A DNA stretch of 64,000 nucleotides, taken from positions 62,001 through 126,000 of the forward strand of contig NZ_JALKCV010000006.1 in the NCBI RefSeq assembly GCF_023634065.1, given 5' to 3'. A program made the position numbers and the translations under genes. The notes under the pieces are model-generated. The model saw nothing but the letters and a program-made list of their open reading frames with translations, had not been told where the DNA came from and did no database searches. Origin of the DNA: Microbulbifer litoralis. GTDB lineage: Bacteria; Pseudomonadota; Gammaproteobacteria; Pseudomonadales; Cellvibrionaceae. Positions 18,434 to 30,491 of the stretch are shown piece by piece (the stretch's first letter is position 1; every line of letters begins with the position of its first letter).

Positions 18434-18480
18434 CCCGCGTCTTTGTCCCCTATTTTTGATCTCTACTTTTAGGGTTGTGC

Positions 18481-20349
<1,869 letters not shown>

Positions 20350-20360
20350 GCGCTATACTG

Positions 20361-20385
20361 AAGCCCGGCAACGCCGGGCTTTTTT
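20361..20385 (+). terminator. Terminator after rpoD
   Basis: AAGCCCGGC, an AAC loop, GCCGGGCTT and a T6 run, 12 bp after the rpoD stop. Confidence 0.9.
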
Positions 20386-20459
20386 ATGTTACCCCCGGAT
20401 GACAGTAACCATAGGCTGCGCCCTGCGCACCAGAGGCAATGCGCCGCAAGAAAAGCACC

Positions 20460-20849
20460 ATGCAGGAAGAATTCGTCAACAAACCCGGCAAGACCGGGAT
20501 CCCCCGCCTGATCGACGCCACCAGCTACTCACGCCAGGGCCTGATCGCCACCTGGCGCAACGAGGCCGCCTTCCGCCAGGAAGTAACGCTGGCCATATTC
20601 CTGATCCCGCTGGCCCTGTGGCTCGGCCAGAGCGGCATCGAGCGGGCAATCCTGATCGGCGTCACCCTGCTGGTGATGATCGTCGAACTGCTCAACAGCG
20701 CCGTCGAAGCCGCCATCGACCGTATCGGCCCGGAAAAACACCCGCTATCCAAAATCGCCAAGGACACCGGCTCCGCCGCAGTCTCCATCTCATTGCTGAT
20801 GTGGCTGCTGACCTGGGGCTGCATACTGATCCCCCGCTGGATCGGCTGA
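20460..20849 (+). CDS. dgkA: Diacylglycerol kinase
   Basis: 129 residues from ATG 20460; an earlier in-frame ATG at 20439 would add seven residues. An integral inner-membrane enzyme with three hydrophobic helices. Conserved elements are GLIATWRNEAAFRQE (amphipathic N-terminal part), the ELLNSAVEAAIDR catalytic helix with its Glu/Asn residues, and HPLSKIAKDTGSAAV. It recycles diacylglycerol to phosphatidic acid using ATP. It stands alone between rpoD and an autotransporter. Confidence 0.95.
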   Translation: MQEEFVNKPGKTGIPRLIDATSYSRQGLIATWRNEAAFRQEVTLAIFLIPLALWLGQSGIERAILIGVTLLVMIVELLNSAVEAAIDRIGPEKHPLSKIAKDTGSAAVSISLLMWLLTWGCILIPRWIG

Positions 20850-21020
20850 TACCCGTCCCCCGGATAAAAACAGCGCGCCGCGGGAATAAACACCGCACCC
20901 GCATTTTGATGACCACATTCATTTCGCGCCATTGATGCCGCAATCCGCTAGCGTCCCCCTGCCGCTCGGCTAGACTTTTTCCACCCGAAATAGAAGCACC
21001 GATAAGCCAGGGAAAGGTTT

Positions 21021-23219
21021 ATGCCAGAGTTACGCGCAGGACGCGCGCGCATCTGCAGTGCCAACCTGCTGTTAGCCGCCGCCTTTTCCAGCCCCCAGCC
21101 ATTGCTCGCGGCCTGCAGCGAAAACTTCCCCGCAGATGGCGCCACAGTCTCCTGCAGCGGCACGGATCCCGTCGGTATCCGCGGCACATCCGCCCTCGGA
21201 GTCAGTGTATTGATCCACAGCGGGGCCAGCATCGACACCGTCGACGTCCCGGCCATCGAACTGGGCGCCGGCGCCTTTATCGAAAACCGCGGCACACTGG
21301 ATTCCGGTGGCGGCTATACACTGCGGCTCTCCGACGGCGACGACGAGCTGGTGAACAACGGCAGCATTGCCGGCGGTGTCCACCTCGGCGACGGCGACAA
21401 TCGCGTGGCGCTGAACGGCGGCCATATCGAACGCGTATTGCTGGGCGGCCGACACGGCGACACACTGGTCTGGAATGGCGGCAGCGTCGGCGACAGCATA
21501 CTGCTCGGCACCGGCGACGACAGCGCCACCCTGAACGGCGGCGCCGCACCGGCCGACACCATGCTGAACGGCGGCTTCGGCCACGACCGCCTGCTGCTGT
21601 CGAATCAATCACTGCAGGGGGCCAAACTCTACGGCTGGGAACACATCCGCCTGAGCGACGACTCGGCGTTCACAATCGATGCGCCCCTGTCCCTAGGCGA
21701 CAGCGATGCCCTGCCCTCCCGCCTCACCATCGACGCCGGCAGCCGGCTGCTGATTCCGGAGTTCACCACCAGCATCACCGCCGTCGCCGGCGGCGCCCTG
21801 GCGATCGAGAATCACGGCAGCATCGACCTGCGCGGCGAAACCGAAAACGAACTGCGCATCGCCGGCGACTACACCGGCACCGGCGGGCTCTACCTGGACG
21901 CCATTGTCGGCGGCGACGACAGCCAGGCCGACCGGCTGCTGATCGACGGCGGCCACGCCAGTGGCAGCACCCGCGTACATATCAACAAACTCGGCGGCCG
22001 CGGCGGCAGGACGGATACAGGTATCCTCGTCATCGAGGCCATCAACGGCGGCAGCACCGGTGCCGGCGCATTCCATATGCCCGAACCAATATCCGCCGGC
22101 CCCTACGAGTATTACCTGTTCCGCGGCGGGGAGAGCGCCGACGAGGCAGACAACTGGTACCTGCGCAACAACCTGCTGCCCGGCAGCGCGCCGCCGTCAA
22201 CCCAGCCGACCACACCGGCCATATACGCCCGTGGCGGCGTACCGGCAGACGCCGGGAACGAGATCCACCGCGGCCCCCCGGTTCCACTGTACCGCCCGGA
22301 AGTGCCGCTCTACGCGCAGATAAAAAGCCTCGCCCAGCAGACGTCGCTACAGCAGATCAGCAGCTTCCAGCAGCGGCGCGGTGAACAGCGCAACTGGAGC
22401 TCGGGACAGGCCAGCGGCGGCCTGCGGCTCTACCACCGCGACACACGGCTGGCCTGGGACGGCGATGTGCACAGCGCGTTCGACGGGCGCATGAGTGGCC
22501 TGCAACTGAACGGCAACCTCTATGCCGGCCCCAGTTGCCGGGGCGCACAGGAGCTGGGTCTGTTCGCCGGCAGCAGCTTTGTGCGCGGCGACGTGAGCGG
22601 ATTCGCACGCGGCAGCGAGCACTACCGCGCCGGTGAAAACCAGCTGGACAGCTACTACTTCGGCGCCTATTTCAGCGACTACCGGCGGGACAACAGCTAT
22701 CTCGATATCCTGGTGAAACTGGGCTATGTCATGGCGGAGAGCCGCTCCTATCGGGGCCTCTCCAGCGACACTCGCGGCCCGCAGCTGACCCTGTCCGCCG
22801 AGCGGGGATTCGCACTGCCCCTGGGCGAACACTTCAACCTCGAACCCCAGCTGCAGGCGGTCGTCAATTACACCAACCTCAGCGCCTACCGCGACGGCAT
22901 CTCCACCGTGGAGCCGGACATGACCCCCGAGGTCAGCTTCCGCGCCGGCCTGCGCGCCTACAACACCCGCGGCGACAACCAGTACTACCTGTTCGGCAGC
23001 CTCTGGCACACCCTGGACGGCAACGACGAGCTGCGCTTCGACGGCGGCACCTGGCTGGAAAACCGGCGCGGCGCCACCTGGCTGGAAGCCGGCGCCGGCC
23101 TGGTGCTGCTGGACACCGGCCCCGGCAACCTCTTCTTCAACCTCAGCTACCAGCAGTCCGCCGACGACCTCGACTGGCGCGGCGGCAGCGCCAACCTGGG
23201 CTTCGACCTGAACTGGTAG
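21021..23219 (+). CDS. Autotransporter with small passenger and C-terminal beta-barrel
   Basis: 732 residues. A signal peptide (about 1-31) is followed by a passenger of about 400 residues made of short Gly/Asp/Asn-rich repeats (LGDGDNRVALNGG, LGTGDDSATLNGG), which suggests a pertactin-like beta-helix. A linker around residues 390-430 precedes an autotransporter barrel (about 445-732: YYFGAYFSDYRRDNSYLDILVKLGYVMAESRSY) ending in the outer-membrane signature LGFDLNW. Two cysteines near the mature N-terminus could form a disulfide. LAAC at the signal end resembles a lipobox, so lipidation is possible. It is probably an adhesin or surface protein; no protease or lipase motif was seen. It is monocistronic. 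Confidence 0.85.
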   Translation: MPELRAGRARICSANLLLAAAFSSPQPLLAACSENFPADGATVSCSGTDPVGIRGTSALGVSVLIHSGASIDTVDVPAIELGAGAFIENRGTLDSGGGYTLRLSDGDDELVNNGSIAGGVHLGDGDNRVALNGGHIERVLLGGRHGDTLVWNGGSVGDSILLGTGDDSATLNGGAAPADTMLNGGFGHDRLLLSNQSLQGAKLYGWEHIRLSDDSAFTIDAPLSLGDSDALPSRLTIDAGSRLLIPEFTTSITAVAGGALAIENHGSIDLRGETENELRIAGDYTGTGGLYLDAIVGGDDSQADRLLIDGGHASGSTRVHINKLGGRGGRTDTGILVIEAINGGSTGAGAFHMPEPISAGPYEYYLFRGGESADEADNWYLRNNLLPGSAPPSTQPTTPAIYARGGVPADAGNEIHRGPPVPLYRPEVPLYAQIKSLAQQTSLQQISSFQQRRGEQRNWSSGQASGGLRLYHRDTRLAWDGDVHSAFDGRMSGLQLNGNLYAGPSCRGAQELGLFAGSSFVRGDVSGFARGSEHYRAGENQLDSYYFGAYFSDYRRDNSYLDILVKLGYVMAESRSYRGLSSDTRGPQLTLSAERGFALPLGEHFNLEPQLQAVVNYTNLSAYRDGISTVEPDMTPEVSFRAGLRAYNTRGDNQYYLFGSLWHTLDGNDELRFDGGTWLENRRGATWLEAGAGLVLLDTGPGNLFFNLSYQQSADDLDWRGGSANLGFDLNW

Positions 23220-23243
23220 CAGACCCCACGCCGTGGGAAACCG

Positions 23244-23272
23244 TTGATTCCCAAGGGGAAATCGGGTACTTT
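23244..23272 (+). promoter_or_regulatory. Promoter of the tRNA gene
   Basis: TTGATT (23244-23249), a 17-bp spacer and TACTTT (23267-23272), followed by a GC-rich discriminator. The predicted transcript begins with an 8-bp hairpin (GCCTGCGG/CCGCAGGC, 23281-23300) that ends 12 bases before the tRNA. Confidence 0.5.
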
Positions 23273-23312
23273 GCGCTACCGCCTGCGGCCTCCCGCAGGC
23301 GCCTGTCTTTGG

Positions 23313-23389
23313 GGGCCCTTAGCTCAGTTGGTTAGAGCATCCGACTCATAATCGGCAGGTCCTGGGTTCAAGTCCCGGAGGGCCCACCA
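23313..23389 (+). tRNA. tRNA with CAU anticodon, probably tRNA-Ile2 (lysidine-modified)
   Basis: 77 bases including encoded CCA. The acceptor stem is GGGCCCT/AGGGCCC, with D arm AGCTCAGTTGGTTAGAGC, anticodon CAT at 23347-23349 in loop CTCATAA, and T arm with GGTTCAAGTCC. The sequence is closer to E. coli ileX (same TTAGCTCAGT and CGACTCATAATCG) than to elongator tRNA-Met. It has the C4-G69 and C5-G68 pairs that the lysidine synthetase TilS uses to recognise tRNA-Ile2, so it should read AUA. A generic annotation would call it tRNA-Met. The top anticodon-stem pair is a T27/C43 mismatch. Confidence 0.9.
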
Positions 23390-23666: not shown

Positions 23667-25043
23667 TCAGCGGTTTGCCGCCCGCTCCCGCACCGCATCA
23701 AAATCCCAGTCCACCAGCAGTTCGCCGTTGCGGAACACTTTCACCAGGGCATTGCGCCGGTCACCCAGTTCGTCTTCGCGTACAGTCCGGTAACCCTGTG
23801 GCCCCTCGACAAGTGCCAGGCGGCCGCGCTTGGAGCGTTTGCCGGGGTCGGTAGCGGGATCCTTGTAGATGTCGCGCCATTCGCCGTCGATACGGATTGC
23901 CGAGGCTTTCATGGCAAACTTCTGGGTGTCGCGGTTGATCTTCTGCAGCAGCTCGCCGCCCATGCCGAACGTCACGTTGTCGGCACTCAACCCCCGTTTT
24001 TTCATCGCCTCGAGAATGGCTTCGATGGAGCGGGCACAGATGCCGTCGCCCTGGATCAGGCGGATACAGGTGGGCAGGACGCGGTAGCCCCTGGTGTTGG
24101 TTTCATAGCCGAAGCGGGTCATCAGGCGCTCGATGGCTTCCGGGACAATTTCGGTGGGCTCGCCGGAGTCCGGGCGCACCACCAGGGTTCCGCCGAACTG
24201 CTGTACCTGCTCCCGGAGTTCCCCGCCCCAGAGGTTGTCGATGGCATTCCAGAAATCATAGGAATCGCTGACCACAGCCACCGGGCAACCTTCGCCGCCG
24301 AACTGCTGGATCATGTTGGCGTAGGCGGCGGCCTCGCCATCGCGGCCCCAGCTGGTAATCGTGCTGTGCTCGGCCGCGGGGATTGAGAAGCCGGCCATGT
24401 CGGCGCTGTAGTAACGGCGTGCAGCCATGATGCCGGACAGGGTGTCGGTTCCCATGAAGTTCACCAGGTGCGCAGCCCCGCCCAGTGCGGCGGCCTCCTC
24501 GGCGCTGGCACCGCGGGCGCCGAAGTCGTGGAGCTTGAACGGCAATCCCTCGAGATTGTCCGCCGTCTCTTCCATATAGCGGGCAATGATATTGCGGCAG
24601 GCGCGGGAAACCGTGGCCACCGTGGTGGGATACCACACGGCCCTCAGCAGTGCGGTTTCGATATAGCTGGTCAGCCAGGCGCATTTCGGGTCGGTGTTGA
24701 TCACCTGCACCATGACATTCCCGGTCGGCAGGACAGTGCCTTCGGGCGCGGCTTCAATCTCGAGCGGCAGATAACCTTGGTACTCGTTGAGAATATACTC
24801 CCAGCCCTCCCGGTTGAACGGCACCCCGTGCGCCCCGCAGACGGCCTCGGCCTCATCGATATCCGCGCGGCTGATCGGGCGGCTCAGGTAAGCCTTGAGG
24901 AATGCCTGCAGACCGAAGAAAACGGTCTCGGGGTAAACGCCCCCACGGGATTCAATGTAGCTGGAAACATATTCGGCGCCCTGCGGGTACTGGGCGAAGT
25001 GGGACATTTTGTAGGAATCGGTATTGAGAACCAGGTTGCGCAT
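23667..25043 (-). CDS. nadV: Nicotinamide phosphoribosyltransferase
   Basis: 458 residues from ATG 25043, behind an excellent AGGAGG site (the in-frame extension to 25091 lacks one). It converts nicotinamide and PRPP to NMN, the first step of non-deamidating NAD salvage. NAMPT features are NTDSYKMSHFAQYPQG at the N-terminus, FGLQAFLKAYL, HDFGARGASAEEAAALGGAAHLVNF, ISIPAAEHSTITSWG-type active-site region (here FSIPAAEHSTITSWG), RPDSGEPTEIV and IQGDGI. NMN would then be adenylated by NadM encoded at 27.5-28.6 kb. A putative NrtR operator lies about 100 bp upstream. Confidence 0.96.
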   Translation of the reverse strand: MRNLVLNTDSYKMSHFAQYPQGAEYVSSYIESRGGVYPETVFFGLQAFLKAYLSRPISRADIDEAEAVCGAHGVPFNREGWEYILNEYQGYLPLEIEAAPEGTVLPTGNVMVQVINTDPKCAWLTSYIETALLRAVWYPTTVATVSRACRNIIARYMEETADNLEGLPFKLHDFGARGASAEEAAALGGAAHLVNFMGTDTLSGIMAARRYYSADMAGFSIPAAEHSTITSWGRDGEAAAYANMIQQFGGEGCPVAVVSDSYDFWNAIDNLWGGELREQVQQFGGTLVVRPDSGEPTEIVPEAIERLMTRFGYETNTRGYRVLPTCIRLIQGDGICARSIEAILEAMKKRGLSADNVTFGMGGELLQKINRDTQKFAMKASAIRIDGEWRDIYKDPATDPGKRSKRGRLALVEGPQGYRTVREDELGDRRNALVKVFRNGELLVDWDFDAVRERAANR

Positions 25044-25144
25044 GACGGAGTTCCTCCTGTCGGTAATTGTCGGCGCCGGTCTATCCAGCACTGTTCGCAG
25101 CGATCCGCTGCCCCGCTCCGGCGCTTGCCGCCGTCCCGGTGAAC

Positions 25145-25169
25145 ATATATTGGCCCAAAGCCACTATAT
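25145..25169 (-). promoter_or_regulatory. Putative NrtR operator of nadV
   Basis: A palindrome with 10-base arms (ATATATTGGC and, inverted, ATATAGTGGC; one mismatch) around a 5-base centre. The core TTGGC-N5-GCCACTATAT is identical to the site at 28642-28666. On the minus strand a TTGACG box (25170-25175) directly abuts it and an AATATA-like -10 lies at the far arm, so a bound protein would cover the nadV promoter. Confidence 0.75.
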
Positions 25170-25276
25170 CGTCAACAACTTTTTGATGCCCGAAATCCGG
25201 GGTTCAGTAACCGGGCAAGGCCGGTAGGGGAAGCACCGCGCGGGCGGGCGGATGCGCGATCGCCGCGCGACCGGGA

Positions 25277-26383
25277 TCAACCCAGATCGACGCTGTCAGT
25301 CACACAGCGTATGCCGTTCACCCGGCAGGCACTGGCAGCCAGGTCGGAATAAATCGCCGGCGACGCGGAGAAGCCGACATCCACCGATACCCGGCTGCCG
25401 TCGCTGTCCAGCCGCTCGGCGCGAAAATACTGTGCGCCCCCACTGGCAACCGCCGCCATCCCTGCGGAAACCGGCGCGCCCCAGCGGGTAACCTGGAATT
25501 TATCCGCTTCGAGCCAGCGCACCACGCTATCGATCAGCTCCGGATCGTACGGCAGCAACAGGTCCACATCGGAGGGTTCCACACTCGCGCCCGCCAGCCA
25601 GCGGGCGAAACTGCCGATCACCAGTATCTGCGGGAAAGCACGCTGCAGCTCCCGCGCTGTCACCAGCGATGCTTCGAGATCGCAGGGCTTGGGTCCGTGC
25701 CGGGCAATCAACACATATTCATGGGCGCGATTGCTCAACGGCGATGCCGCCTCGTCATCGAGTCTGTCGTACACGATGATTCTGTCTTCGACAAAATCAA
25801 ACCGCGCCATCATCAGTTTGGCCACATCCCACGCCTGCGGAATAAACTGTTCACCGAGGCGAATGTTTTCGACCGCAACTATGAGATAGCCACCGGGCCT
25901 GAGAGCAGTCTTCAATGCGATGAATGTGGTGCGGACTTTTTCCAGATAGGCGCCATAGTTGCCCGCCCGGTAGAGCTGGTCGTCACACTCACTTTCAAAG
26001 CCGCAGCCGAAATACGGCATGCTGGTCAGCACCAGATCCACCGGCTCGAGGGTTGCGGCCAGTGCCTCACTGTCGCCCAGCAGCAGGGTCGCCCGCTCCA
26101 TACCCAGTGCGTCCAGGCGCTCGCGAGCAAGGCGGTGGCGGTTCTCTTCAATTTCGATCCCCACGCCCCGGCGCCCCTCCAGAGAGGCGGCGACCAGGGT
26201 GGAGCCAAACCCGGCAAAAGGGTCCAGCACCCGGTCCCCGGGTTTGGTGAACTCGCGGATATAGGGCCGCATCTGTTCGACCCAGCCACAATCCCGGGCC
26301 CCGAAAGGGTCAGCCTCGGCCAGGGCCGACGGCAGGGTATATGCCGCCGCCCTGGAATGAAGATGCATCCAGCTATTCGCCAC
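25277..26383 (-). CDS. SAM-dependent methyltransferase fused to a minimal nucleotidyltransferase
   Basis: 368 residues from GTG 26383, which has a GGGGAGGG ribosome site and overlaps the upstream gene by 11 bases; ATG 26368 is the alternative. Residues about 35-215 are a DNA/RNA amino-methyltransferase fold: SAM motif DPFAGFGST (54-62), acidic loop IEIEENR (76-82) and a catalytic TSMPYFG (120-126) in place of the usual (D/S)PPY. Residues about 245-368 are a pol-beta-type nucleotidyltransferase: GSFAR (257-261), SDVDLL (271-276) and a third Asp in SVDVGF (about 335), so all three metal ligands are present. I do not recognise a named family with this fusion. It follows a radical SAM gene within the nadM transcript. 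The substrate is unknown: DNA, RNA or a nucleotide. Confidence 0.75.
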   Translation of the reverse strand: MANSWMHLHSRAAAYTLPSALAEADPFGARDCGWVEQMRPYIREFTKPGDRVLDPFAGFGSTLVAASLEGRRGVGIEIEENRHRLARERLDALGMERATLLLGDSEALAATLEPVDLVLTSMPYFGCGFESECDDQLYRAGNYGAYLEKVRTTFIALKTALRPGGYLIVAVENIRLGEQFIPQAWDVAKLMMARFDFVEDRIIVYDRLDDEAASPLSNRAHEYVLIARHGPKPCDLEASLVTARELQRAFPQILVIGSFARWLAGASVEPSDVDLLLPYDPELIDSVVRWLEADKFQVTRWGAPVSAGMAAVASGGAQYFRAERLDSDGSRVSVDVGFSASPAIYSDLAASACRVNGIRCVTDSVDLG

Positions 26384-27458
26384 GATCAGGTCCCTCCCCG
26401 GCGGCTGAGAACAGAATATGCCGTTCCGGGTTCCAGTCTGCGCACAGGTTGCCATTGGCATGGAAAACCAGTTTGAAGACACGTCCGGAATCGTGCTTTT
26501 CGTGCAATACGGTGTAGTCCGAGGCCTCGAACGTGATGCGCAGCCCGCTGTCCTCGACCACCAGATTCGAAAAATAGTAGCCACGGGTGGACTGTTTCAG
26601 TTCCGGCCGCGCAGCGCCCTTCCGCTCCAGGAATTCCAGCATCAGGTGCGCGACGGAGACCCGCGCGGCATCGATATAGCGAAAGGTGGCATTTGCCCGG
26701 TAGCGGCGATCCAGCGCCGACAGCTCGCGAAAAATGACATGCTTCACCCCCAGCGAACGCGCCCAGGCCAGATAGCGCAACATCTCACCCAGGCTGTCCA
26801 CACCGCCGGCCTGGACGATACAGACCAGCCTGGTTTCGGTAATGTCGTTGAGGTGGTCGACACAGCTGGCGAATGCCCCGTTGTCGGCGGCGAGGCTGGA
26901 GGAGCGGAAGCGCATGATTTCCTGGTTCGTGTATTCGTCATGGTGATGCCGCGACAGTTCGATCCAGCTGAAGCCGAAGTCCGCCATGGCCCGCTTCAAG
27001 AGAGGGTCGCTCCCGAGAGCCAGCAGCCCGGACGCGTTGCTGTACAGCACCCGGTTCTCCACCGGATTACCACGCGTATGGGTTGCCAGTGTCTGCAGTA
27101 GCTGCAGAAACCAGCTGCGGTCGTCTGTCATTTCCAGCCCGGACAGGGAGTAGGACAACGGCAGGCCGCGCAGTTCATCCAGCGCCCGCTGCAGTTGCAG
27201 GAAATAACTGCCGGCGGGGCGAAGCAGGCTGGCGTGCCGGCCCGCGCCTTTTTCCCGCAGGTTTTCGGAGCAGAAACGGCAACGGCCGGAACAGGGCCGC
27301 ACCGATGCATAGGGTGTAAAGGTGACGGGCTGAACCACCTGCCACGACCTGCCGCCAATCGTGTGCCGGCGCCAGCGCGACGGCTCCCCCTGCGGTTCGC
27401 GCAGCACAACGGTCTGTACCGCATCCCAATAACGGCTGACGGCGCTTTCCAGATCCAT
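26373..27458 (-). CDS. Radical SAM protein of unknown function
   Basis: 361 residues. The [4Fe-4S] motif CxxxCxxC is PCSGRCRFC (Cys56, Cys60, Cys63), preceded by VTFTPYASVR. SGLEMTDD, about 40 residues on, stands where the GGE motif of radical SAM enzymes lies. The rest reads as a partial TIM barrel (SWIELSRHHHDEY, TRLVCIVQAGGVDSLGEMLRYL, HVIFRELSAL). No second cysteine cluster for an auxiliary cluster was seen. It lies 50 bp after nadM and overlaps the methyltransferase-nucleotidyltransferase gene by 11 bases, so the two products probably act together. The reaction is not predictable from sequence. Confidence 0.8.
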   Translation of the reverse strand: MDLESAVSRYWDAVQTVVLREPQGEPSRWRRHTIGGRSWQVVQPVTFTPYASVRPCSGRCRFCSENLREKGAGRHASLLRPAGSYFLQLQRALDELRGLPLSYSLSGLEMTDDRSWFLQLLQTLATHTRGNPVENRVLYSNASGLLALGSDPLLKRAMADFGFSWIELSRHHHDEYTNQEIMRFRSSSLAADNGAFASCVDHLNDITETRLVCIVQAGGVDSLGEMLRYLAWARSLGVKHVIFRELSALDRRYRANATFRYIDAARVSVAHLMLEFLERKGAARPELKQSTRGYYFSNLVVEDSGLRITFEASDYTVLHEKHDSGRVFKLVFHANGNLCADWNPERHILFSAAGEGPDRGE

Positions 27459-27508
27459 AGGACTCCCTGCCGCCAGCCGTTAACGGCCGGCAGCCCACAA
27501 CAATGTGA

Positions 27509-28567
27509 CTACACCAGGCCGAGGATGTCCTGGATGATGAAATAGTGATCCTCAAACAACATGCCGGGGTTCAGTTCCGCCAGCGGCACCCAGCGTGCCT
27601 GCCGGGCGTCGTCTCCCCCTTTCACTTTCGGCAGGTCCGCATTCGGCGCCAGCTCCATGTAGAACGCATGGGTGATGGTGCGACCGCGTGCGGAACGGTA
27701 GGGATCGTCGTAGACGGCCTGGCGGCGGATGGAGCCCTTCAGCACCGGCGCGGGGACTTTCACACGGGTTTCCTCGCGCAGTTCGCGCAGGCAGGCATCG
27801 AGCAATCGCTCTCCCTGGTCCACAAATCCGCCGGGCAGGGCCCACAGCCCCTTGCCGGGACTGGCCCGCCTCTCCACCATCAGCACATGGCCGGACTGCA
27901 CCACCACCGCGTCCACCGTCACGAACGTGGGCGCATAAGGCGCATGGCTCCAGGCCTCGCGGTATTTGCTGACGAATGCGATTTCGTCCCGCACCTGAAC
28001 GAAACCGGGATCATCGTTCCTGAAAGCGTCCAGGTAATCCGCCACCGGCCGGGGCAGGGCCTCCGCTGCCACCATGGTCTGCAGCACCGTTTCCGGCTCT
28101 TCCGTGAAGTAGCGCTCCCTGATCGGCGTCGCACTGATTTCTCTGTGGTTCTCCACCCCGACACTTTCCCATTGTGGAAACAGGTTCAGGTAAAACCCGG
28201 TGTGATCCTTGCGGTGGCCGATCAATGCGATCCTCGGCTTGCGGTGGGGCGTGGTGTGGTGGGCGGTAACCATGCCCGATACGGTCGACTGCACATTGCG
28301 CACCCAGGCTTCATCGTTATACGGCACATCCATCAATGGCAGGCACAACAGCCGCCGGTTGTCTTCCGCGGAGAGGCAGGCCCGCACCATCTGTTCCCGC
28401 TCCCGATGGAACCAGGGGTTGCGGGGATTGCGCGCTTGCCAGGAGGAGCCGATCAGCAGGATCAGCCGGTCGGCCTTTTCCAGGCCGGTCCGCACGACCT
28501 GCAGGTGCCCGGAGTGAAAGGGTTGGAAGCGGCCGATAAAGACCGCGAAATCGAATTCGCGTTGCAT
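27509..28567 (-). CDS. nadM: Bifunctional NMN adenylyltransferase / Nudix hydrolase
   Basis: 352 residues. The N-terminal half (1-180) is a nucleotidyltransferase with FIGRFQPFHSGHLQVV and the ISATPIRERY motif, making NAD from NMN and ATP. The C-terminal half (from about 205) is a Nudix domain with box GGFVDQGERLLDACLRELREET. The last Gly position of the box is Arg, but the catalytic REUxEE core is intact, so ADP-ribose pyrophosphatase activity is likely. This fusion is known from cyanobacteria and many proteobacteria. The start follows AAGGAG. It is divergent from nrtR with the operator between them, and is the first gene of a transcript that continues into the radical SAM gene. Confidence 0.95.
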   Translation of the reverse strand: MQREFDFAVFIGRFQPFHSGHLQVVRTGLEKADRLILLIGSSWQARNPRNPWFHREREQMVRACLSAEDNRRLLCLPLMDVPYNDEAWVRNVQSTVSGMVTAHHTTPHRKPRIALIGHRKDHTGFYLNLFPQWESVGVENHREISATPIRERYFTEEPETVLQTMVAAEALPRPVADYLDAFRNDDPGFVQVRDEIAFVSKYREAWSHAPYAPTFVTVDAVVVQSGHVLMVERRASPGKGLWALPGGFVDQGERLLDACLRELREETRVKVPAPVLKGSIRRQAVYDDPYRSARGRTITHAFYMELAPNADLPKVKGGDDARQARWVPLAELNPGMLFEDHYFIIQDILGLV

Positions 28568-28641
28568 ACAGCAAGCTCCTTGCCGTGAGTGGGGTTGGCG
28601 GGTCTGTCCCGCGTCCGGTTGCGCCGGATGGCTGCCGGGCC

Positions 28642-28666
28642 TATTATTGGCTAACAGCCACTATAT
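28642..28666. promoter_or_regulatory. Putative NrtR operator in the nadM/nrtR divergent promoter
   Basis: TATTATTGGC, five bases, then GCCACTATAT. It shares TTGGC-N5-GCCACTATAT with the nadV site. On the minus strand TTGCTA (28666-28671), a 17-bp spacer and AATAAT form the nadM promoter with the operator as spacer. The nrtR ATG is only 11 bp beyond it, so the regulator should also repress itself. nrtR lacks an evident ribosome site. Confidence 0.8.
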
Positions 28667-28677
28667 AGCAAGCCGCC

Positions 28678-29406
28678 ATGAGTCGAGAAATCACCGAAGC
28701 CCGGTTCCTGAAGCAATACGACCCGAAGGATTACGACAGCCCGCTGGTGACGGTGGATATTGCATTGTTCACACTGCATGAATCGACCCTGCAGGTCCTG
28801 CTGGTGGAGCGCGGCGAGCATCCGCACAAGGGGCGTTGGGCCCTGCCCGGCGGATTTATCGATCTGCAGGCAGACGCCGAGCTGCATGACACTGCCCAAC
28901 GCAAGCTGCGACAGAAAACCGGTGTCGATGTGCCACTGCTGGAACAGGTCGGCACGGTCGGCAACGCGCAGAGGGATCCCCGGGGCTGGTCGGTCACCGC
29001 GCTCTACATGGCCCTGGTTCCACACGCGCCCACGGCAGAGTTTATCGACAGCGTCACGGATGCCCGCTGGTGGCCGATTGACGAAGTCGGCAAGCTGCGG
29101 CTGGCTTTCGATCACGCGGAGCTGGTCGACCTGGCGCGCGAACGGCTGAAAAGCAAAACCGCCTACACGGTTCTGCCGGTGCATGTACTCAGGCAGCCGT
29201 TCTCACTGACGCAGCTTCAACGGGCCTTTGAACTGTTGATGGATGCCACGCTGGAAAAGAAATCGTTCAGGCGGCGCATTCTCAATGCCGGGGTACTGGA
29301 GGAGGCCGGCGAAGGGGTACCGGAAGGGGGGCGCGGCCGCCCCACCGTGCTCTACCGCCCGGCGAAAAATTCTGGGCAATATCTGTTTACACGGGTTTTC
29401 GGTTGA
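28678..29406 (+). CDS. nrtR: Nudix-related transcriptional regulator NrtR
   Basis: 242 residues. A Nudix-fold sensor domain (about 20-150: VTVDIALFTLH, LPGGFIDLQADAELHDTAQRKLRQKTG) whose box has lost the catalytic glutamates (KLRQKTG instead of REUxEE), as expected for a regulator that senses ADP-ribose rather than hydrolysing it. The C-terminal winged helix (about 165-240: VLRQPFSLTQLQRAFELLMDATLEKKSFRRRIL, ending GRPTVLYRPA) binds DNA. NrtR represses NAD synthesis and salvage genes. The local targets would be nadM with the radical SAM pair, nadV and nrtR itself, given the two matching operators. Confidence 0.93.
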   Translation: MSREITEARFLKQYDPKDYDSPLVTVDIALFTLHESTLQVLLVERGEHPHKGRWALPGGFIDLQADAELHDTAQRKLRQKTGVDVPLLEQVGTVGNAQRDPRGWSVTALYMALVPHAPTAEFIDSVTDARWWPIDEVGKLRLAFDHAELVDLARERLKSKTAYTVLPVHVLRQPFSLTQLQRAFELLMDATLEKKSFRRRILNAGVLEEAGEGVPEGGRGRPTVLYRPAKNSGQYLFTRVFG

Positions 29407-29549: not shown

Positions 29550-30491
29550 ATGGACACACTGAAAGACAGGTTCGCCGGCGCCCTGCTGGGCCTCGCCTGC
29601 GGCGATGCGGTTGGCACGACGCTGGAGTTTGCCCCCAGGGGCAGCTTCCGCCCCATCACCGACATGGTCGGCGGCGGCCCCTTCAGGTTGAAACCCGGGC
29701 AGTGGACGGATGACACCTCCATGGCGCTCTGCCTGGCAGAGAGCCTCGTCGAGAAAGGGACCTTCGATCCGGCCGACCAGATGACCCGCTACCTCAACTG
29801 GTGGCACTGGGGTTACTTCAGTGCCACCGGCACCTGTTTCGATATCGGCAATACCGTCAGGGCCGCGCTGACCCGATTCCGGGAAACCGGCGATCCCTAT
29901 TCCGGCTCCCGCGATCCCCGGACTGCCGGCAATGGCTCCCTGATGCGGCTCGCACCCGTGGTGCTGTTCGCCCATACCTCACCCGGCGAACTGCAGACTC
30001 TGGCCGCGGACAGCTCGCGCACCACACACGGCGCCGGCGAAGCCATCGAAAGCTGCCAGCTCTTTGCCCAACTGATTCACCGCGCCCTGAGCGGGCACCG
30101 GAAAGCGGCCCTGTTGAGCGGGATTTCCGGCGAATGGCGGCAAGACAGTATCAGGCAACTCGCCGCGGGCGGCTTTACCGAAAAGCCCTCTTCTGACCTC
30201 CGTGGCTCCGGTTACTGCGTCGAGTCACTGGAAGCCGCACTCTGGTGCTTCTTCAATACCGGATCCTACCCGGAAGCGGTATTGGCCGCGGCCAACCTCG
30301 GCGACGATGCCGACACCACCGCGGCGATTTGCGGCCAACTGGCGGGCGCCTTCTACGGCGCCGCGGCCATCCCTGCCCGCTGGCTGGAAAAGCTGGCCAT
30401 GCGCGAGGATATCGAGACACTGGCGAGCCGACTTTACCAGCGCGCCACCGCCGGCCAGCCCGGTTCCACCGAAGTGGCGCCAAAAGGATAA
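29550..30491 (+). CDS. ADP-ribosylglycohydrolase family protein (DraG-like)
   Basis: 313 residues of the all-helical DraG/ARH family. The first metal motif is GQWTDDTSMALCLAESL (about residues 50-66), the second is NLGDDADTTAAICGQLAGAFYG (about 256-277); both carry the Asp/Thr ligands of the binuclear magnesium site. It removes ADP-ribose from proteins or small molecules, returning ADP-ribose that the NadM Nudix domain could process. Members of this family are frequent in NrtR-linked gene sets. No operator copy was found in its own upstream DNA, so it may depend on read-through from nrtR. Confidence 0.92.
   Translation: MDTLKDRFAGALLGLACGDAVGTTLEFAPRGSFRPITDMVGGGPFRLKPGQWTDDTSMALCLAESLVEKGTFDPADQMTRYLNWWHWGYFSATGTCFDIGNTVRAALTRFRETGDPYSGSRDPRTAGNGSLMRLAPVVLFAHTSPGELQTLAADSSRTTHGAGEAIESCQLFAQLIHRALSGHRKAALLSGISGEWRQDSIRQLAAGGFTEKPSSDLRGSGYCVESLEAALWCFFNTGSYPEAVLAAANLGDDADTTAAICGQLAGAFYGAAAIPARWLEKLAMREDIETLASRLYQRATAGQPGSTEVAPKG

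Follow-up and report, generated by a model that had tools for sequence, protein, structure and literature searches.

A radical SAM-like gene and a methyltransferase-nucleotidyltransferase-like fusion gene linked to nicotinamide salvage in Microbulbifer and another gammaproteobacterial order

The chemistry of nicotinamide adenine dinucleotide (NAD) in bacteria is generally regarded as essentially solved. One described route salvages nicotinamide through NadV, a nicotinamide phosphoribosyltransferase, and NadM, a nicotinamide mononucleotide (NMN) adenylyltransferase/Nudix protein, under the repressor NrtR, which responds to NAD and adenosine diphosphate (ADP)-ribose. A 64,000-nucleotide stretch of the Microbulbifer litoralis genome (contig NZ_JALKCV010000006.1, positions 62,001 to 126,000; hereafter the window) holds a locus of this kind, with nadM, nadV, nrtR and NrtR-type boxes. 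It differs in two extra genes between nadM and nadV, whose domains are unmatched or fused: one encodes a radical S-adenosylmethionine (SAM)-like protein and the other an amino-methyltransferase joined to a nucleotidyltransferase-like domain. There is good support for a link between this pair and NAD salvage in bacteria, and a suggestive one for distant phage relatives; tentatively, we propose that the pair is an accessory module acting on a nicotinamide-derived nucleotide. An open-access literature search found no paper that connects radical SAM enzymes with NAD salvage.

The radical SAM protein resembles the MoaA/viperin-like end of its superfamily in a CxxxCxxC motif, a GGE-like SGLE motif and, tentatively, in a low-confidence structure model whose alternating strands and helices may correspond to the (beta/alpha)6 partial barrel; phage members of its family match PF04055, and match the MoaA, HxsC4 and viperin models below the cut-off. 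Unlike that group, the window protein matches no family and has motifs of its own, GYY and NGxLxxxW, conserved near the C-terminus of its family. With the DNA N6/N4 amino-methyltransferases the fusion protein shares a match to PF01555 above the cut-off and the DPFxGxGT motif, but this motif precedes motif IV, which reads S/N-x-P-Y, no target-recognition domain was matched in the fusion, and a nucleotidyltransferase-like domain is added at the C-terminus. That last domain recalls MdcG, the phosphoribosyl-dephospho-CoA transferase, which moves a nucleotide onto a carrier protein (PMC5534430); one aligned row matches the MdcG family PF10620, but below its cut-off, and 6/7 rows are unmatched. Finally, the phage system NARP1 (Adps and Namat) is alike in that NAD-rebuilding genes are carried by phages, whereas the window has homologues of nadV and nadM, a comparison made without a search for Adps or Namat; a word search of the available text of the NARP1 paper did not find the word "radical" (PMC12774641).

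The radical SAM protein and the fusion protein

The first-pass annotation had described two overlapping minus-strand genes behind nadM, and both reading frames are present there:

26373..27458, minus strand: radical-SAM-like protein, 361 residues; ATG at 27458, stop ending at 26373
25277..26383, minus strand: methyltransferase-nucleotidyltransferase-like fusion, 368 residues; GTG start
25694..26311, minus strand: amino-methyltransferase part of the fusion, about residues 25-230, with DPFAGFGST and then TSMPYFG
25277..25681, minus strand: nucleotidyltransferase-like part of the fusion, about residues 235-368, with GSFAR, SDVDL and a third Asp in VSVDV

On the minus strand nadM is followed, after a 50-base gap, by the radical SAM gene, which overlaps the fusion gene by 11 bases; a 221-base gap then separates the fusion gene from nadV. 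The likely start of the fusion gene is the GTG at 26383, 9 bases past a GGAGG, where a mechanical open reading frame (ORF) would begin at 26584. The ratio of nonsynonymous to synonymous substitution (dN/dS) between the window and M. taiwanensis is ~0.17 for both genes of the pair, which are under purifying selection.

We assign the first protein to the radical SAM enzymes because of its CxxxCxxC motif, the SGLE motif in place of the usual GGE and its homology to relatives that match PF04055. The CxxxCxxC motif lies at residues 56-63, as had been noticed from the sequence, and Cys56, Cys60 and Cys63 are invariant in 8/8 aligned rows (10/10 including phage rows); no further conserved cysteine cluster was seen in the family alignment. 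Searches of Pfam (PF04055 included), NCBIfam and PADLOC up to E 1, and of PHROGs up to E 0.01, returned nothing for the window protein. PF04055 does match 5/10 family members at the loose limit of E 10, two phage members scoring above the cut-off, and the NCBIfam viperin model NF038283, which leaves the window protein unmatched, gives a phage relative 33.5 bits against a cut-off of 180. Searching PDB sequences with the protein or its profile returned nothing relevant. Structure models for the pair were built from few sequences (4 and 2); that of the radical SAM protein has a mean predicted local distance difference test score (pLDDT) of 54.7, and its top five Foldseek rows are the radical SAM enzymes SuiB and DesII, at low template modelling (TM) scores of 0.29-0.39. 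Foldseek rows serve here as hints only, because the models are low-confidence.

The second protein had been read as a fusion of an amino-methyltransferase with a pol-beta nucleotidyltransferase. Its first half bears this out in its motifs and in the match to Pfam N6_N4_Mtase (PF01555; 72.2 bits against a cut-off of 26.7, E 8e-20), although motif IV is non-canonical, reading (S/N)(M/V/L)PY in 6/6 rows and not (S/N/D)PP(Y/F/W). The tRNA guanine-N2 methyltransferase model TIGR01177 also matches, more weakly than PF01555 (E 1e-9), as do PDB rows of that kind, and the top six Foldseek rows for the low-confidence model are the DNA methylase TTHA0409. Rows for nicotinamide N-methyltransferase (NNMT) in the Foldseek list were set aside, given the many NNMT entries in PDB and the generic methyltransferase fold. 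In the second half, G, DxD and the third Asp are invariant in 7/7 rows, the residue after G being Ser in six and Thr in one; together with the DPF-G-G-T and T(S/N)xPYFG motifs, kept in 6/6 rows, and the three cysteines above, this agrees with the earlier view that the catalytic motifs are intact. No Pfam family named nucleotidyltransferase matched any of the seven rows up to E 10, and a PDB sequence search with the profile gave nothing relevant (best E 0.22). MdcG PF10620 matches one of the seven rows over the motif region (E 0.0037; 17.6 against a cut-off of 26.5). The model of the fusion has a mean pLDDT of 59.6; values are mostly 78-93 across residues 241-360 and fall to 34-44 at 301-320. 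The motifs, this moderately confident region and the sub-threshold MdcG match make the domain a putative nucleotidyltransferase; the MdcG match hints at nucleotide transfer to a carrier, as a lead and not as membership.

The two halves of the fusion also have stand-alone relatives. Plasmid pHsw1 of Hymenobacter swuensis carries a gene for a relative (35%) of the radical SAM protein, overlapping one for a 171-residue nucleotidyltransferase-like protein that matches the fusion's last domain at 39% over 54 residues (E 5e-6), and Streptomyces sp. NBC_01450 encodes a 222-residue, 40% relative of the methyltransferase part (locus L026, 11992-12660). The fusion therefore looks like the joining of two separately occurring proteins. 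Proteins from genome G301 (26%) and from Embleya were excluded because they belong to a different radical SAM subfamily, which a long branch sets apart. Members of this sister subfamily (457-508 residues) are followed by an aminotransferase-like gene in a gammaproteobacterium (L020, 6132-8361) and in Embleya (L025, 9131-11670; aminotransferase named by eye).

Linkage of the pair to NAD genes in bacteria and phages

The genome searches mostly scored part of the first-look candidates per genome (e.g. 13/27, 4/32), and the samples overlap and by construction include the window's own genome and G367, the centre genome from another gammaproteobacterial order, which we take to be Lysobacterales; the counts are therefore rough lower bounds. 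The radical SAM gene was found in 3/48 Microbulbifer genomes (the window's, M. taiwanensis and G408) and in 5/150 genomes of G367's order, four of them strong carriers. A class sample gave 3/369, including the window's genome and G301, which at only 26% belongs to the other subfamily, and a phylum sample gave 3/398, one of them negligible. Full-length fusion genes occur in 2/48 Microbulbifer and 4/150 genomes of G367's order (6/198), always in carriers of the radical SAM gene. Among the fusion matches in G367's order, 16/20 listed genomes are matched over a portion of the methyltransferase region only, as is G013; these were rejected along with a Haloferax methylase (29%), and weak matches in G517 (E 1.7e-4) and G575 (E 5e-4, two stops) were left out of the family.

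All seven strong carriers have nadV, and in six of them it lies in the same cluster as the radical SAM gene (rSAM), in one of three gene orders: nadM-rSAM-fusion-nadV in the window and M. taiwanensis (L007), rSAM-nadM-nadV without the fusion gene in G408, and nadM-nadV-rSAM-fusion in G513, G553 and G473. G367 has the pair and nadM-nadV apart, on contigs 24 and 30 respectively. Co-occurrence of the two genes outside close relatives, on which the first-pass annotation had staked the grouping, was thus found, together with nadM and nadV, in two gammaproteobacterial orders, and the pair is linked to NAD salvage in bacteria. At E up to 1e-60, nadV is present in 30/48 Microbulbifer genomes and 22/150 genomes of G367's order; in the latter, its presence in 4/4 strong carriers has a hypergeometric p of 0.0004, relatedness ignored. 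Two nadV copies, the second away from the pair, are found in 3/3 Microbulbifer carriers against 8/48 genomes overall with two copies (p 0.003). In the nadV tree, pair-linked and unlinked copies of G367's order share one unresolved group, so there the pair looks as though it had been added to a nadM-nadV unit already in place. Nine other Microbulbifer loci that we examined have nadM, nadV and nrtR but no pair. Other accessory ORFs, e.g. ADP-ribosylglycohydrolase-like and metallophosphatase-like (by eye), are found in the pair-less nadM-nadV loci L062, L064, L065, L067, L069 and L070.

Phage relatives of the radical SAM protein, colinear over its full length at 21-26% identity, were found in Dulem virus 40 and IMG/VR contigs. 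Ten records were considered, nine viral and the Hymenobacter plasmid; one viral fragment of 7.7 kb encodes a radical SAM protein identical to that of another contig, which leaves eight distinct phage records. In 8/8 of these the relative (rSAMb) has a small radical SAM gene, rSAMa, on its upstream side, and in 4/8 a third, intermediate radical SAM copy lies between the two. The tandem of rSAMa, a 28-29% intermediate copy and rSAMb spans about 7300-10060 in L118-L121, phage contigs of 107-210 kb. In IMGVR_UViG_3300009081_000009 the two genes lie inside the run pncB-rSAMa-rSAMb-rSAMc-nadE-pncA-nadD-nrtR:

L116, 7073-15335 (the stretch of L032 and L035): phage deamidating NAD salvage cluster with an NrtR homologue and three radical SAM genes

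Here pncB and the nadE domain score above the NCBIfam cut-offs, and nadD (88.2 against 112.45), nrtR (159.7 against 400) and pncA (28.0 against 174) below them; nrtR passes the cut-off of Pfam NrtR_WHD, and rSAMc matches part of the Cfr/RlmN models. Whole-record searches for the NAPRTase family (PF04095) matched 6/10 records, which are six of the eight distinct phage records, and against a nadV baseline of 22-33% quoted for medium and jumbo phages (PMC9503650), this gives p 0.002-0.019. We regard the NAD linkage of the phage relatives as suggestive. The nucleotidyltransferase motif pattern, which recovers the bacterial loci L018, L019 and L023, found nothing in the phage loci scanned, and this is weak evidence. 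Partial matches (26-34%) in L122-L125 and 735-kb phage records were left out; some viral-contig scans gave no relative, and another gave only partial methylase matches. The available text of another report lists nicotinate phosphoribosyltransferase genes together with radical SAM and MoaA-like genes within the same individual jumbo phages, and does not link them (PMC5468394); those phages were not returned by our phage-collection searches.

Neighbouring genes, NrtR-type boxes and a leader hairpin

The remaining genes of the locus, and a second nadV elsewhere in the same genome (G000), are:

27509..28567, minus strand: nadM, NMN adenylyltransferase/Nudix (NCBIfam NF003786, 551.7 bits against a cut-off of 397)
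23667..25055, minus strand: nadV, nicotinamide phosphoribosyltransferase (NCBIfam NF006629, 658.5 against 405; Pfam NAMPT_N)
28678..29406, plus strand: nrtR, NAD/ADP-ribose-responsive repressor homologue (Pfam NrtR_WHD above cut-off; NCBIfam NF050029 268.6, below the cut-off of 400)
29550..30491, plus strand: ADP-ribosylglycohydrolase (Pfam PF03747, E 4e-81)
C3:261672-263036: second nadV, separate from the pair locus

NF006629 is titled nicotinate phosphoribosyltransferase, and Pfam NAMPT_N backs the name nadV. The nrtR gene is divergent from nadM. Near the NAD locus, rpoD, dgkA and a tRNA gene are found in the window (18475-23389) and in G408 (L015, 16949-19679); neither rpoD nor dgkA is in the stretches taken around nine nadM-nadV loci of other Microbulbifer. 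The predicted regulatory elements are:

28642..28667, minus strand: NrtR-type box upstream of nadM, 26 bases; repeated in L007 (M. taiwanensis)
25145..25170, minus strand: NrtR-type box upstream of nadV, 26 bases with 3 mismatches; L007 has a near-perfect palindrome in this position
27469..27494, minus strand: stable hairpin in the nadM-radical SAM gap, 11 pairs; -29.3 kcal/mol for 65 nucleotides; z -3.1
28596..28614, minus strand: leader hairpin (GGAYAGACC) before nadM
25073..25091, minus strand: leader hairpin (GGAYAGACC) before nadV

The chance expectation for the NrtR-type boxes is 0.00 in 100 shuffles, with a pattern itself drawn from these sites. Judged by eye, the radical SAM gene of G408 is immediately preceded by an NrtR-type palindrome, with another before its nadM. 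In the other order, where the gene linkage is kept, three loci showed no such box ahead of nadM; NrtR control is not universal. The earlier proposal that the pair shares the NrtR-controlled promoter of nadM is plausible given the 50-base gap, but the stable hairpin falls within it. This hairpin is not followed by a T-run and no terminator was reported there, so polar attenuation is possible. A promoter of the pair's own, unlinked to NAD genes, was not seen.

A leader hairpin with an invariant GGANAGAC loop and a variable stem precedes nadM and nadV in both orders (window, L007, L015-L018, L062-L070, L074-L076, L079). In 35 distinct aligned leaders—identical copies dropped, and the nadM leader of G408 excluded because its hairpin lies further upstream—91.4% of stem cells pair against 67.6% when shuffled, and 50 cells are changed on both sides against 14.4, a value reached in 0/500 shuffles; sliding the pairing partner abolishes the signal. 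Stem pairs with a double change number five, no more than in shuffles (367/500). An apparent second stem around the ribosome-binding site, downstream of the hairpin, was excluded from the covariation count, and RNAalifold recovered the leader hairpin unprompted. The hairpin is absent from the second nadV copies of the three Microbulbifer carriers and from nadV of G507. With an RNA model of the leader, the two matches in G000 at E up to 0.01 are the two leaders; matches elsewhere (14/185 genomes, best E 3.6e-5) had no NAD gene in loci of 1.6-3.1 kb and were taken as chance. Scanning seven loci with Rfam at gathering score returned no NAD-related family, and nothing relevant matched in the window stretch. 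We consider the hairpin a candidate riboswitch or protein-binding leader.

Possible functions of the pair

Our preferred reading, to which we give a probability of roughly 0.35, is that the pair forms an accessory module modifying a nicotinamide-derived nucleotide. The radical SAM enzyme would bind a [4Fe-4S] cluster, cleave SAM and modify nicotinamide, NMN or NAD, after which the fusion protein would N-methylate an amino or amide group and transfer a nucleotidyl group. The product would be either a modified pyridine nucleotide or a carrier bearing such a group. Substrate would come from the adjoining nadV and nadM copies, whose known functions lead from nicotinamide through NMN to NAD. In phages the constant partner is the second, small radical SAM protein in place of the fusion. 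Our choice of a nicotinamide-derived molecule for the radical SAM step comes from what the two routes have in common: both the amidated one in bacteria (nadV/nadM) and the deamidated one in the phage (pncA/pncB/nadD/nadE) share nicotinamide and NAD. Amino-methyltransferases of this kind act on the NH2 of nucleobases or amides, and NAD has both, which counts in favour of the proposal, as do the linkage to nadV and nadM in three gene orders, the carrier statistics, the constant company of fusion and radical SAM genes and the phage NAD cluster with its NAPRTase-family tally. A wider version strikes us as doubtful: bacteria and large phages would share a radical-SAM NAD branch making a modified pyridine nucleotide (e.g. 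ring-, ribose- or amide-modified NMN or NAD), completed in bacteria by the fusion and serving as an alternative coenzyme or in survival of NAD-depleting immunity.

A number of observations weigh against a nicotinamide-derived substrate. The proteins give no residue-level sign of a pyridine-nucleotide substrate, and the models are poor at the mean pLDDT values of 54.7 and 59.6. The fusion protein is missing from G408; in Hymenobacter the partner has no methyltransferase, and the plasmid has no NAPRTase-family match; the Streptomyces methyltransferase relative lies near PhzF-, PhzG- and PhzC-like genes (by eye), not NAD genes. Bare co-occurrence in Microbulbifer is not significant (p 0.23) because nadV is common in that genus. 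As for the phages, their relatives are of low identity and on a long branch, two of the eight records (Dulem virus 40 and a 108-kb contig) have no NAPRTase-family match, nadV is common in medium and jumbo phages anyway, and the eight records are not fully independent, because L118 and L119 look like close kin.

The first-pass annotation had suggested a nucleotide or nucleic-acid modification system, and nothing favours nucleic acid over a small nucleotide. A system that modifies RNA or DNA according to NAD status, with the radical SAM protein and the methyltransferase modifying bases and the nucleotidyltransferase-like part recognising or extending the nucleic acid, seems unlikely to us. It would suit a methyltransferase nearest to DNA N4/N6 methylases (PF01555, TTHA0409) and less near to tRNA guanine-N2 enzymes (TIGR01177, PDB rows), and the partial match of phage rSAMc to Cfr/RlmN models; yet Pfam and NCBIfam scans of the window protein turned up neither THUMP nor another RNA-binding domain, motif IV is without the first proline of DPPY, the sporadic occurrence (3/48 in the genus) is unlike core tRNA or rRNA modification, and such a system has no apparent reason for needing the nadV/nadM pair. 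Just as unlikely is a phage-host conflict module, making an NAD variant resistant to host NADases or rebuilding NAD after NAD-depleting defence, in bacteria and phages alike. Its appeal lies in the distant phage relatives, one of them in an NAD cluster and 6/8 with a NAPRTase-family gene, in the patchy distribution, in the ADP-ribosylglycohydrolase that adjoins the locus in the window, and in an established phage NAD-reconstitution pathway (PMC12774641), but two phage records are without a NAPRTase-family match and the nadV baseline in large phages is high. A defence function had also been raised at the outset; the radical SAM protein is unmatched in PADLOC up to E 1, and the methyltransferase part matches generic DNA-methyltransferase models and mad2 over part of their length.

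We find it harder still to credit a specialised-metabolite route using nicotinamide or NAD as a building block, with the nucleotidyltransferase for activation or self-protection. NAD is such a building block in altemicidin biosynthesis, and the Streptomyces relative lies in what looks like a phenazine-type cluster; no transporter, carrier or tailoring genes were recognised near the bacterial pairs, where no systematic search was made, and both the NrtR-type boxes that tie expression to NAD supply in Microbulbifer and the occurrence of relatives in phages point away from it. The least likely account is hitch-hiking, in which the pair is a mobile cassette that landed in NAD loci by chance. Its rarity and patchiness (3/369 in the class sample, counting the window's genome and G301) and the pairs of G367 and Hymenobacter that are not beside NAD genes would fit, but NAD genes accompany it in each of three bacterial gene orders and in a phage operon, and G408 has its NrtR-type palindrome before the radical SAM gene itself.

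If the pair does modify a nicotinamide-derived nucleotide, it would point to a new NAD-derived molecule or a new consumer of NAD precursors, encoded by a small set of three or four genes. Its radical SAM family, without a matching Pfam or NCBIfam model, is linked with nicotinamide salvage across two bacterial orders, and distant kin of it occur in phages.

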